In this document: positions 2,160 to 6,258 of the stretch, in pieces
How positions within the stretch are numbered: the stretch's first letter is position 1
How the letters are laid out: the number at the start of each line of letters is the position of its first letter
Source: Candidatus Latescibacterota bacterium
Lineage (GTDB): Bacteria; JAAXHH01; JABIQT01
Reading direction: 5' to 3'
DNA length: 11,428 bases
Assembly (NCBI GenBank): GCA_018667995.1
Contig: JABIQT010001076.1
Span: 1-11,428 of the forward strand
Program-made: the position numbers and the translations under genes
Notes under the pieces: generated by a model
What the model saw: the letters and a program-made list of their open reading frames with translations, nothing else
Told to the model about the DNA's origin: nothing
Database searches by the model: none

Positions 2160-3116
2160 TTACAGTTTTCTAAGCCGGACCTGATCAACGATGTGCTGTG
2201 CACCTTTATCAATGATAAGATCTGCCCGGCCGCGGGTTGGGAGGATATTCTCGCGAAGGTTGACGCCGTTGATATCGCGCCAGATACCTCTGGCCACCTC
2301 CACGGCTTCTTCGATGGAGAGCGATCCGTAGTGGTGGAAGTAGGATTTGGGGTTCTGGAAGGAGGTCTCGCGGAGTCGTAGAAACCGCTCCACATACCAC
2401 TGCTCCAGATCGTACTCTTCGGCACTGACGTATATGGCAAAATCGATAAAATCAGATAGAAAGGTGCGATCGCCCTCGCGACCAGTCTGCAGAATATTCA
2501 AACCCTCGAGAATCATAATGTCAGGCCGGTCGACCGTCTGCAACTGGTCTGGTACAATATCATATGAGAGGTGCGAGTAGACGGGCCCCGTCACGGGAGA
2601 CACGCCCGATTTCACATCCGCCACAAATCGCACCAGCCGCTTTACATCGTAGCTTTCAGGAAACCCTTTTCTGTGCATGATGCCCCGCGTCTCAAGATCT
2701 CTGTTTGAACAGAGAAAGCCGTCTGTGGTCACGAGGTCCACACGCGGGTGATCGGGCCAGCGACTCAGAAGGGCCTGCAGAATCCGTGCGGTAGTACTCT
2801 TCCCTACTGCCACACTACCCGCTATTCCAATGACATAGGGCACTTTTGCCGCAGGTTGGCCGAGGAATGTATCCATCACCTGATACAGGCTCTGTGCGGC
2901 AGCAACATGCAGATTCAGAAGCCGCGACAGTGGCAGGTAGATCTCGGCCACTTCGGTGAGCGACACCTCCTCATTGATACCGCGTAACTCGGCGAGATCC
3001 GCTTCGGTCAATGTGAGTGGCGTGGCAGCTCGAAGTCCGGCCCAAGCATCACGGGCAAATTCCACATAAGGCGTGAACGTCGTGCTCTCGTGTAAAATTG
3101 TCATCCTATATTCCAT
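2160..3116 (-). CDS. coaA: Type I pantothenate kinase
   Basis: This gene encodes a bacterial type I pantothenate kinase, the cytosolic ATP-dependent enzyme that makes 4'-phosphopantothenate in the first step of coenzyme A synthesis. The 318-residue product matches Escherichia coli CoaA (316 aa) along its whole length from memory, with the N-terminal [15 protein letters not shown] and the C-terminal end VRLRKL. The Walker A motif GSVAVGKS is at residues 100-107. TTDGF (130-134) carries the likely catalytic Asp132. KGFPESYD (150-157), YSHLSYD (180-186) and ILEGLN (202-207) are all intact. In E. coli this type is feedback-inhibited by CoA, and Arg111, likely equivalent to its Arg106, is present. 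An ATG four codons downstream (at 3104) is an equally plausible start. It lies 87 bp downstream of the enolase-superfamily gene on the same strand and may be co-transcribed with it. Confidence 0.97.
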
Positions 3117-3203: not shown

Positions 3204-4313
3204 CTACGAAATCTGGGCATAATCGATCTGCTGCCGATCAAGCCGCTCCTGGATAGGTTCGGCACCAGCACCGGGTCGATCTGAGAGCGTCATGGTCGAT
3301 GGTCCTGATAGTGTAATATCCGGTTCTGACAGATCCTCTGTATAGAAACGTGAACTCGGAAACACGTCCGACGGATACTTCATTCCGGGCAAAGTGGCCA
3401 ATGCTTTGCAGACCGACGCGCCCAGGGCCGATTCCAGCATACCTCCAGTCCAGCAGGGAATATCCGCCTCCTGACAGATTCGATGAATCTCGAGAGCATG
3501 CGTGATGCCACCCACGCGACAGGGCTTGATATTCACCCACTGACATGCCTTTATCTTCAGCGCCCGACGTACCTTTGCTGGCGATGTTATACTTTCGTCC
3601 AGGCAGACAGGGGTATCGATTTGTCGCTGCAATTCAGCGTGATCTACCAGGTCATCGTGCATTAGCGGCTGTTCGATCATGGCCAGGTTGTACTGGTCCA
3701 ACTTCTTGAACATATCCAGATCATCGAGGGTATATCCACTATTGCAGTCAATATGGAAGACCTGGTCGGGAAACGTAGATCGGACGGCAGAGACCATATC
3801 AACACCCCATCCGGGGCAGTACTTTAGCTTAATGCGAGAAAATCCTGCGGAATTGGCCTTCTCAATGTTGGCCAGGAGCATATCGATATCATCCTGTACT
3901 CCGAAATCGGCACCCACCTCGATCACATCCGAGGTTCCCCCGATGGCCTTCCACAGGGGTTGACCTGCTTGACGCGCGTGTAAATCCCACCATGCCGAAT
4001 CAAGCCCACCCTTGGCAAAGAAATTCCCTTTCACCCAGGAAAAGCACCCATGAAGTGCCGATCCGGAATCCACATCATTCCCCACCACAGCCGGTGCCAG
4101 CACGTTCTTAATCACCTGGTAGACCCCTGCTGTATACTCCGGACTATATGCCGGACTACTCAGTGGGGTAGTTTCCCCCCAGCCAAAATCCGACCCGGCC
4201 CACATGCGAACAAGCACACTCTCAATCACATCATCACTGCCATAGGCTGTCCGCCAAGGATAAATCAACGGCATGGCGACGTGAAAGAGTTCGATCCGAT
4301 CGATCTTCGGCAT
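3204..4313 (-). CDS. Enolase-superfamily enzyme, N-succinylamino acid racemase / o-succinylbenzoate synthase type
   Basis: The 369-residue protein belongs to the muconate-lactonising (MLE) subgroup of the enolase superfamily, whose members abstract an alpha proton from a carboxylate bound to Mg2+. The acid/base motif K-x-K is at Lys162/Lys164. Metal ligands are Asp189 (HIDCNSGY), Glu214 (IEQP) and Asp239 (LDES), and the opposing base is Lys263 (NIKPCRVGG). The segment TGGMLESALG (289-298) is characteristic of the NSAR/OSBS family. This fold is shared by o-succinylbenzoate synthase (MenC, menaquinone pathway) and N-acyl or N-succinyl amino acid racemases. No other men gene is in the window, so I favour a racemase or unknown dehydratase/racemase role. 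GGAG lies 7 nt before the ATG and supports the start. The GxxExxY repeat unit begins 38 bp upstream of the start codon. Confidence 0.88.
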   Translation of the reverse strand: MPKIDRIELFHVAMPLIYPWRTAYGSDDVIESVLVRMWAGSDFGWGETTPLSSPAYSPEYTAGVYQVIKNVLAPAVVGNDVDSGSALHGCFSWVKGNFFAKGGLDSAWWDLHARQAGQPLWKAIGGTSDVIEVGADFGVQDDIDMLLANIEKANSAGFSRIKLKYCPGWGVDMVSAVRSTFPDQVFHIDCNSGYTLDDLDMFKKLDQYNLAMIEQPLMHDDLVDHAELQRQIDTPVCLDESITSPAKVRRALKIKACQWVNIKPCRVGGITHALEIHRICQEADIPCWTGGMLESALGASVCKALATLPGMKYPSDVFPSSRFYTEDLSEPDITLSGPSTMTLSDRPGAGAEPIQERLDRQQIDYAQIS

Positions 4314-4350
4314 TTTCTTGCTCCGGTTTGTTTAACGGCAGAGACACTTT

Positions 4351-4374
4351 TTCACCACAAAGACACAAAGGTAC
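4351..4374 (+). repeat. Left inverted repeat, tandem CACAAAG units
   Basis: After TTCA come the 8-bp units CCACAAAG and ACACAAAG, then a degenerate GTACAATG that runs past the perfect repeat. The first 20 bases match the inverted right copy with a single A/G difference at position 13. Confidence 0.85.
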
Positions 4375-4450
4375 AATGAACTTACGAATTTCTTGATTCC
4401 TGTGCGACTGTAAATCTGGAAGAGATTCGGTCGTTCACGAGCCACATTTC

Positions 4451-4864
4451 TTGGAGGATGGGTACTTGAAAGGAGCCTTCTGCAGTATTTCACCTGCAAC
4501 CAATAGAGTCTCGCGCTATGTAGTCGATGCTTCCTATAGGATTCATTCTCGCCTGGGCCCGGGCCTACTTGAAAGCGTTTACGAGTCCTGCCTTTTCTAC
4601 GAGCTGACAAACAAAGGTCTTCAGGTGCGTCGCCAGACTCTGGTTGCAATCAAATACGATGATATCGAAATCAATGCAGGACTGCGATTAGACCTATTGG
4701 TAAACGACTGCCTGATAGTGGAGCTAAAATCTGTTGAGTCAATTCTTCCGATTCATCATGCCCAAGTGTTGACGTATCTCAAGCTAACCGGCCATCGCCT
4801 TGGTCTGTTGATAGACTTCAATGTACCGCTGATAAAGACTGGAATAAAACGAATAGCGCTCTGA
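4451..4864 (+). CDS. GxxExxY family protein (predicted PD-(D/E)XK nuclease)
   Basis: The C-terminal 120 residues are a typical GxxExxY protein. The signature G38-L-L-E41-S-V-Y44 is followed by RLDLLV with Asp81, IVELKSVE with Glu91 and Lys93, then a glutamine helix HHAQVLTYLK (102-111) and the end LLIDFNVPLIKTGIKRI. The D...ExK arrangement is the catalytic core of the PD-(D/E)XK nuclease superfamily, so a DNA- or RNA-cutting activity is possible but unproven. The start is uncertain. The longest frame begins at a TTG (4451), gives about 14 residues more than usual, and has no good Shine-Dalgarno; an AAGGAG at 4469-4474 would suit a later non-ATG start. No ATG lies in frame before the conserved domain. 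The gene is antisense to both neighbours and sits alone between inverted repeats. Confidence 0.88.
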   Translation: MEDGYLKGAFCSISPATNRVSRYVVDASYRIHSRLGPGLLESVYESCLFYELTNKGLQVRRQTLVAIKYDDIEINAGLRLDLLVNDCLIVELKSVESILPIHHAQVLTYLKLTGHRLGLLIDFNVPLIKTGIKRIAL

Positions 4865-4875
4865 CATCAGGTCTT

Positions 4876-4899
4876 GTGGCTTTGTGCCTTTGTGGTGAA
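4876..4899 (-). repeat. Right inverted repeat, tandem CTTTGTGN units
   Basis: On the plus strand this reads as a degenerate unit ending TTGTGG, followed by CTTTGTGC, CTTTGTGG and TGAA. It is the inverted partner of 4351-4370 and lies 11 bp after the GxxExxY stop codon. Confidence 0.85.
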
Positions 4900-4907
4900 T
4901 TGGGGAG

Positions 4908-6119
4908 CTACCGACTGTCCAGGTACCCCAATAAGCACTCGGTCACAGCTTCCGCCAGTTCCGGATCGTTGATATTACAGTCCAGCTCGGTTACCGTGAT
5001 ATCTGGTCGTACGTTTTCCCTGATGGCATCGAAGAGTGCTCTGTCCGCCTCCGGCCACCAGTACTCGCCGTCCGGGCTGTCCAGAATGGACAGGCCTTTC
5101 AGAGGGAGGAAGAAGGCCACCGGTCCTGTGGCGGCATTGGCTTTCTCCGCCAGAATTTGACCAAGTCGGGCGTTTTCGGCCACGTCGGTTCGCATCAAGG
5201 TGATATTGGGATTCCACTTGTGGAGATTCCGCTCTCGATAGACTTCGGGTACCGTGTCCGGCGCCCAGAAATTGGCCATATCCATGCAACCTGGAACTAT
5301 GACCTGTGGGATGCCAGCTTTGGCAGCACCGTCCAGGCGAGTGGGACCGGCGGACAAGACTCCGCCCACGAGCTCATCGGCCCATTCCGTGGTGGTAATG
5401 TCGAGAACACCTTCAATCATGCCATCCGCTATCAGTCCCTCCATGGTCTGACCACCGGTGCCCGTGCAGTGAAACACCAGCACCTCATACCCCTTTGCTT
5501 CCATGAGTGCTCGAGCCTGGTCCACCGCCTGTGTCGTATTTCCGAACATAGTTGCGGCGATCAGCGGTTTCTCTTCAACCGGAGCCGGTTCTGTCTCAAC
5601 CATACCGACAATGGCACCTACGGCATTGGAATATATCTGGCGACTGATTCTGTTGATCCCGGCCACATCCACAACGGAGGGGATCATCACTATGTCCTTA
5701 ACGCCTACATAGGGAGCCGTGTCTCCTGAGGCCACCGTCGACACCATCACCTTGGGAAATCCCACCGGTAGTACGCGCATAGCGCTCGTTCCCACCGATG
5801 TGCCCGCCGAGCCGCCCATGCTGAGTATCCCATCAATCGTGCCGTTGTGATGAACGATCTCGATAATCTCAGCGACACCGTGGGCCATTGCCGCAATGGC
5901 CTCCCCGCGATCGTTCTGCGTCTTCAGCGTATCAATAGAGGTACCCGCGGCAACCGCAACTTCCTCCCGCGACACATCTGCCTTGAACAACGGCGGATCT
6001 ATGACACCGGTATCCACCACAAAGGTACGGTGGCCACGTCGTTCAATTTCATCCTTTACGAACCGGAACTCCTCGCCCTTGGAATCCAGTGCCCCTACGA
6101 TGGTTATCGTCTTCGGCAT
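4908..6119 (-). CDS. Tm-1-like / UPF0261 family protein
   Basis: The 403-residue product is a full-length UPF0261 protein, the family of the ATP-binding N-terminal domain of the tomato Tm-1 virus-resistance protein. Recognisable segments are the start TITIVGALDSKGEE (4-17), VVDTGVIDPP (34-43), the glycine-rich ILSMGGSAGTSVGT (98-111), MFGNTTQAVDQA (191-202), HCTGTGGQTME (217-227) and VPGCMDMANFW (275-285). The bacterial role is not established. Members often sit in catabolic gene clusters with dehydrogenases or hydrolases, in line with the enolase-superfamily gene downstream here. The C-terminal TIM-barrel domain fused in some homologues is absent. I chose the ATG at 6119 because GGGAG lies 8 nt before it; an in-frame GTG at 6134 would add five residues but would contain that Shine-Dalgarno. 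Confidence 0.9.
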   Translation of the reverse strand: MPKTITIVGALDSKGEEFRFVKDEIERRGHRTFVVDTGVIDPPLFKADVSREEVAVAAGTSIDTLKTQNDRGEAIAAMAHGVAEIIEIVHHNGTIDGILSMGGSAGTSVGTSAMRVLPVGFPKVMVSTVASGDTAPYVGVKDIVMIPSVVDVAGINRISRQIYSNAVGAIVGMVETEPAPVEEKPLIAATMFGNTTQAVDQARALMEAKGYEVLVFHCTGTGGQTMEGLIADGMIEGVLDITTTEWADELVGGVLSAGPTRLDGAAKAGIPQVIVPGCMDMANFWAPDTVPEVYRERNLHKWNPNITLMRTDVAENARLGQILAEKANAATGPVAFFLPLKGLSILDSPDGEYWWPEADRALFDAIRENVRPDITVTELDCNINDPELAEAVTECLLGYLDSR

Positions 6120-6258
6120 GCGATATACTCCCACTCAATTCAGTCTATTACTTATTGTGCTGTTTGGGCTATAGAGAAACGTAGAGGATCAAGTCTGTCA
6201 ACCGAAATATATCTACCGTTTCTTGACCCAGCCTCGCAGTCGTTTTATACTTAATGTT
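6120..6258. other. Divergent intergenic region between the Tm-1-like and zinc-ribbon genes
   Basis: This 139-bp region separates two divergent genes. On the minus strand, TTGACA (6196-6201) could be the -35 box for the Tm-1-like gene, but no good -10 box sits at 16-18 bp, so I do not call a promoter there. The plus-strand promoter is listed separately. Confidence 0.5.
6223..6251 (+). promoter_or_regulatory. Sigma70-type promoter of the zinc-ribbon gene
   Basis: TTGACC (6223-6228) and TATACT (6246-6251) each match the consensus in five of six bases and are separated by the ideal 17 bp. The expected start of transcription, about 7-8 nt after the -10 box, falls at or beside the A of the ATG at 6259. 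This makes the mRNA probably leaderless and rules out the upstream in-frame TTG at 6223 as a start codon. Confidence 0.7.

Follow-up and report, generated by a model that had tools for sequence, protein, structure and literature searches.

What does a single small gene represent when it stands between two near-perfect inverted repeats and no transposase accompanies it? The question is raised by an 11,428-nt stretch of DNA from a Candidatus Latescibacterota bacterium, referred to here as the window. The 20-bp sequence TTCACCACAAAGACACAAAG is found at 4351-4370 on the forward strand and, with one mismatch (19/20), at 4880-4899 on the reverse strand, a pair expected only 0.01 times by chance (200 shuffles). 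The match continues inward to yield 26-nt arms of 88% complementarity, the top entry among the inverted repeats of the window, and the flanking inverted-repeat score of the enclosed gene is 17 compared with 7-9 for the other open reading frames (ORFs) of the window. This gene, the only one between the repeats, encodes a GxxExxY protein. The original prediction, made from the letters of the sequence alone, had described such repeats framing exactly one GxxExxY gene without a transposase; the repeats, the profile matches of the gene, and the absence of a transposase bear this out. Its unit of 549 bp is real as the part bounded by the repeats, while the inserted DNA is slightly larger (Table 1). 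One further stretch, TTTAACGGCAGAGACAC, may tentatively be regarded as what decay has left of the outer end of another such array. Rfam, PADLOC, and PHROGs gave no match, and no close relatives were found in viral contigs and phages.

Table 1. Position of the GxxExxY unit, its parts, and the neighboring host genes within the window
Feature	Position	Strand	Remarks
Inserted stretch	4314..4907		594 bp, from UPF0261 stop to MLE start
Left arm	4351..4376	+	three 8-nt units, inverted array: TTCACCACAAAG ACACAAAG GTACAA
Right arm	4874..4899	-	TTCACCACAAAG GCACAAAG CCACAA, read on the - strand
TTTAACGGCAGAGACAC	4331..4347	+	by eye; resembles the Flavobacterium TTTAACCGCAAAGA ends
GxxExxY PD-(D/E)XK nuclease gene (predicted fold)	4466..4864	+	132 aa, TTG start, GGAGG at 4453-4457
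UPF0261 (Tm-1-like) protein, upstream host gene	4908..6134	-	profile match
Enolase-superfamily (o-succinylbenzoate synthase-like) protein, downstream host gene	3204..4313	-	profile match
Type I pantothenate kinase, next gene in conserved operon	2160..3116	-	profile match and operon comparison

The unit is located in a host operon with the conserved order UPF0261, MLE-type enzyme, and pantothenate kinase (PanK). In all 14 relatives keeping this order (G001-G014), the UPF0261-MLE junction is empty, consisting of about 0-15 nt without an array, as had been proposed for a check of the Tm-1-like/enolase junction. The fifteenth examined genome of the phylum does not carry the MLE gene after UPF0261. 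Among the genomes compared, the 594-bp insert is present in the window genome only. The 14 genomes represent three genera of one family and are not 14 independent witnesses, and a loss in their common ancestor is formally possible. Judged from these sequence comparisons, an insertion of the unit into an intact operon junction is the simpler reading.

The gene is oriented antisense to the host operon, and its product exceeds the curated cut-offs of the GxxExxY / PDDEXK_3 family with 140.8 bits for TIGR04256 (cut-off 35) and 135.3 bits for PF13366 (cut-off 22). The likelier start, judged by eye, is the TTG listed in Table 1, eight bases past the GGAGG. The active-site residues D81, E91, and K93 named in the original prediction are correct for a TTG start at 4451, and this D...ExK pattern (D76, E86, and K88 in A3) is invariant in 78 aligned homologues. 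An AlphaFold2 model of the protein (pLDDT 94, pTM 0.87) has PD-(D/E)XK nucleases as its nearest solved folds, namely Cas4 SSO0001 (Z 9.2), 3ijm from Spirosoma (Z 8.1), BglII (Z 7.3), and Hjc (Z 6.6). Foldseek alone returned no match for the model at E <= 0.001, leaving the fold assignment to rest on profile, motif, and model together; a sequence search found no solved structure for the protein. The predicted fold is that of a PD-(D/E)XK nuclease, and nuclease activity itself is inferred. In terms of identity, the protein is closer to homologues from Acidobacteria and Verrucomicrobia (63-67%) than to the two homologues of its own phylum (43% and 31%), which points to a putative horizontal arrival of the gene. 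The TIGR04256 and PF13366 entries give name and superfamily only and assign no role in mobility. A literature search found no paper on GxxExxY mobility (mentions concern other topics), no paper carrying the repeat strings, and no description of an element combining GxxExxY with arrays.

To what extent the repeats belong to the family was evaluated on the best 80 GxxExxY loci from a scan of GTDB genomes, covering many phyla, with 78 of them testable. The score was defined as the best ungapped inverted match between the 150 bp before and the 150 bp after the gene, with a threshold of at least 12. This was reached by 63 of the 78 genes, compared with 13 of 1560 random placements of the same geometry and 6 of 230 other ORFs on the same contigs; the original prediction had likewise mentioned similar repeats around GxxExxY genes elsewhere. 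A two-unit motif on both sides was found for 41 of the 78 genes vs 1 of the 230 other ORFs. The arms are tandem arrays of 8-9-nt units (identity 0.42 at lag 8 and 0.41 at lag 9; background 0.25-0.29) of the type C[A/G]CNNAG[G/A], the outer end often being ACC[A/G]C. The unit sequence varies by locus (CACAAAG, CGCAAAG, CACCAAG, CACGACGG, GCAATGG), and within one locus both arms agree in it. Cassettes elsewhere span 423-653 bp.

Pairing at the RNA level was considered as a cause of the lasting similarity between the arms and was rejected, as arm mismatches on the sense strand showed no G-U bias (29 vs 43); this indicates that arm symmetry is maintained at the DNA level. The similarity of arms correlates with that of proteins overall (Mantel r 0.23, p 0.001), only weakly below 65% identity (p about 0.04-0.05), and not at all below 55% identity. 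Mean arm cosine amounts to 0.70 at protein distances <0.3 and to 0.27 at 0.4-0.6, and the arm-protein comparison revealed no long-range co-evolution of protein and array. Since arm flavor tracks the protein only among close relatives, recognition of the arrays is not proven; the pattern would fit a fast joint drift of both. Apart from this, individual loci showed particularities. In Sphingomonas parapaucimobilis, the GxxExxY gene is located within the fatty-acid operon, with fabD and fabG as its neighbors (L045, 2971-3399), and the gene of G012 is followed by tandem copies of a G+C-rich analogue, CCGCGGAGGACGCGGAGGGACGCGGAG on the other strand (L013, 1262-1500). GxxExxY genes of Fusobacteria and Treponema are located near another repeat flavor, AATCCGTGT/ACACGGATT (L048, L049).

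The repeats also exist without the gene. Besides its one GxxExxY gene, the window genome contains several inverted pairs without a gene, about 115-150 bp in length, and G015, a genome of another family, carries one gene together with 30+34 repeat copies forming about 30 pairs; the expected recurrence of the repeat in host and relatives was thereby met. In 13 measured doublets of G015 the arms are alike, while loops and flanks are unrelated, with one duplication-like pair as exception (L197/L198). Twelve of them are 74-84 bp and one is 124 bp long, and the loops bear no trace of a GxxExxY gene. Folding of one doublet as single-stranded DNA gave a strong hairpin (z -6.3). No consistent target-site duplication was found in 16 doublets. 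The combination of conserved arms and unrelated loops makes the doublets unlike MITEs and like REPINs, and the MITE reading was rejected on account of the unrelated loops. In one doublet of G015 (L202), the loop contains the GTCATGCCCGCGAAAGCGGGAATCC repeat, representing one repeat family nested in another.

Extension toward the genome level was based on 247 Bacteroidota genomes, one per species and without correction for relatedness between species. The doublet flavor ACCGCRRAG-N1-2-CGCRRAG was searched, and genomes with two or more sites were counted as positive. This applied to 50 of 120 genomes with a GxxExxY gene vs 2 of 127 genomes without (Fisher 2.7e-16, relatedness uncorrected), and the association was present in each of three genome-size classes. 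In total, 449 sites were detected in gene-bearing and 21 in gene-lacking genomes. Sites outnumber genes (e.g., 24 sites for one gene in G311), and over half of the gene-bearing genomes contain fewer than two doublets of the single flavor searched. Among genomes encoding the four-helix family TIGR02436, repeats occur in 49 of 111 with GxxExxY vs 1 of 74 without; TIGR02436 does not explain the Bacteroidota repeats. When 400 kb of one Flavobacterium chromosome were scanned without bias, arrays were almost absent, indicating that they are not a general sequence feature. Repeats being widespread without association to GxxExxY genes would have refuted the original prediction; gene-less repeats do outnumber the gene, yet they are found in gene-bearing genomes. 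In combination, empty junctions, family-wide repeats, and genome-level association provide good support for the mobile unit it had envisaged.

Turnover could be followed at one site between the same two genes in 66 sequences of the Flavobacterium group, classified by eye and motif. These comprise 21 gene-less arrays of the GxxExxY type, 14 clean sites, 10 GxxExxY cassettes, 11 gene-less arrays of another flavor (CGCTGAT/ATCCGCG), 3 small GIY-YIG genes within an inverted repeat of their own, and 7 other genes. On a quick tree of the flanking proteins, the states require 30 changes vs a shuffled mean of 39.3, and supported sister pairs differ in state (L237/L291, GxxExxY vs clean; L189/L276, array vs clean). 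Between sister species, the arms of gene-less and gene-bearing states are unlike in sequence. Further observations concern single loci. The gene-less hairpin of L172 is, by eye, nearly the reverse complement of that of L168 (cf. L171), implying a flipped hairpin between close species. An additional gene-less flavor, AACGCTGAT...ATCCGCGTT, is found at the same Flavobacterium site in L173, L174, L178, L181, L185, and L186. In L235, a stretch made up of the upstream arm and the terminal part of the neighboring gene is present three times in tandem.

Among bacterial populations of short repeats tied to an enzyme gene, REPIN/RAYT appears to be the best known. It consists of REP doublets forming hairpins and a REP-associated tyrosine transposase, the GI type displaying a spacing of 71 bp, conserved ends, a less conserved spacer, and a repeat-flanked enzyme gene (PMC3116915). 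The GxxExxY system likewise comprises intergenic inverted doublets of about 70-80 bp in many copies per genome, and the repeat of the doublets also stands on either side of an enzyme gene; conserved ends and a variable spacer are displayed by the doublets of G015. In contrast, the gene between the window repeats is of the PD-(D/E)XK type and not a Y1 HUH transposase, its arms are tandem 8-9-bp arrays beginning with TTCACCAC without a GTAG/CGTC-type tag (by eye), and the gene is sometimes found in several copies per genome and spread across phyla. Without Y1 transposase and GTAG-type tag it is not a REPIN/RAYT member; in layout it works like one, with an unrelated nuclease replacing the Y1 transposase. 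Free-standing homing endonucleases share the small nuclease gene, presence or absence at orthologous sites, horizontal spread, and decaying copies, but the GxxExxY unit has its own inverted arrays and gene-less arrays spread too; the likeness extends to presence and absence only, as cutting of an empty allele is not shown. MITEs with an autonomous IS resemble it by short gene-less and longer gene-bearing copies with common terminal inverted repeats, and differ in that the interiors of its short copies are unrelated and no transposase lies within the unit, with no consistent target duplication observed in the 16 doublets; the transposase and the homologous short-copy interior of an IS/MITE are both lacking. 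The intervening sequence of 23S rRNA with its four-helix-bundle (S23) gene also places a small gene within inverted repeats, although with another protein, the GxxExxY unit being located in protein operons; genomic four-helix genes differ by period-7 arrays of other sequence.

We consider it probable that the window unit is an inserted member of a mobile repeat family with two parts, a GxxExxY cassette between inverted arrays of 8-9-bp units and many gene-less doublets of these arrays. The insertion at the junction, the family-wide arrays, the dependence of repeats on the gene across genomes, the conserved fold and active site, and the turnover at one site are established, whereas recognition of the arrays, cutting, and copying by repair are inferred in the absence of cleavage or binding data. 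The nuclease would recognize the arrays, or a hairpin or cruciform formed by them, and cut at or near them; break repair or template switching might then place copies of both the arrays and the cassette at further intergenic positions. The original prediction had left the choice between the nuclease and a partner in trans, and naming the nuclease itself as driver of the spread is an inference. Altogether, this suggests a widespread, little-described selfish element needing no ordinary transposase.

The main rival explanation, that another enzyme acting in trans (RAYT/Y1 or a classical transposase) moves cassette and doublets with GxxExxY as passenger or accessory, appears unlikely to us. It accommodates a unit without transposase and gene-less doublets far more numerous than the gene, and a separate RAYT is thought to move REPINs in published systems (PMC3116915, PMC8266576). 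However, the arrays track GxxExxY and not the four-helix family in the 247 genomes, they surround the gene in many phyla while a passenger would need none, and the active-site residues are invariant in 78 proteins. Homing proper, in which gene-less arrays pre-exist and are cut by the nuclease, with the gene being copied in via arm homology, could draw on the ready homology of the arms and on the Flavobacterium site, where close species have either a gene-less or a gene-bearing state. We judge it quite improbable, given that the window site is clean and array-free in all relatives, that clean sites exist elsewhere too, and that, with arms differing between sister species, the gene is not seen to have simply been added to an array already in place. 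It is a variant of the mobile two-part family rather than its opposite.

Two further explanations receive still less credit. Host-functional hairpins acting in mRNA stability, termination, or supercoiling, with GxxExxY as an ordinary neighbor by chance, would be in line with intergenic arrays forming strong hairpins (z -6.3) and with a co-directional upstream gene in 54 of 71 loci. Empty orthologous junctions, mismatches without the G-U bias expected if mRNA pairing kept the arms alike, and the finding that the repeats depend on the gene at the genome level already disfavor this reading and leave it only a slim chance. That the gene-less doublets are mere remnants of cassettes after internal deletion of the gene seems scarcely tenable: doublets and cassettes do have the same arms, and internal stops in 3 of the 80 genes (best 80 loci) demonstrate that decay occurs, but G015 holds about 30 doublets vs one gene, 12 of 13 being 74-84 bp long with loops lacking any gene trace.

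Other small proteins are associated with arrays of their own. Inverted arrays flank 22 of 30 four-helix-bundle (TIGR02436) genes (L131-L160) vs 13 of 600 controls, but their units are 7 nt long and differ in sequence (TCAGCTT, GGGCACTA, GAGTGTTC; identity 0.66 at lag 7 and 0.72 at lag 14), and these genes are present in 35 of 38 GxxExxY genomes vs 0 of 14 control genomes. Heptamer repeats are known from the literature without a mechanism (PMC4679880). Small GIY-YIG genes of about 100 aa (L327-L351, L353) are likewise framed by inverted repeats, here of the GTCATNCTGAG.., GTCATTCCCGCGAAGGCGGGAATC, and TCATTTCGACGAAGGAGAAATC types, with scores of at least 12 in 21 of 25 vs 28 of 435 controls; no inverted repeats were found at four uvrC genes. 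It is quite possible, though short of likely, that these form a general class in which unrelated small proteins (GxxExxY with 8-9-bp, four-helix with 7-bp, and GIY-YIG with GTCATNCTGAG/GTCATTCCCGC-type arrays) each drive their own inverted arrays; many of the anonymous palindromes between bacterial genes would then be explained without a classical transposase. If true, such a class, comprising three or more unrelated proteins with own arrays, would be categorically new. For the GxxExxY family itself, a second, unrelated enzyme with a REPIN/RAYT arrangement across phyla would mean, if true, that this arrangement has more than one origin. A family of which only the name GxxExxY protein is known would gain a first role, and a single gene with a single repeat would suffice to test where many intergenic palindromes come from.
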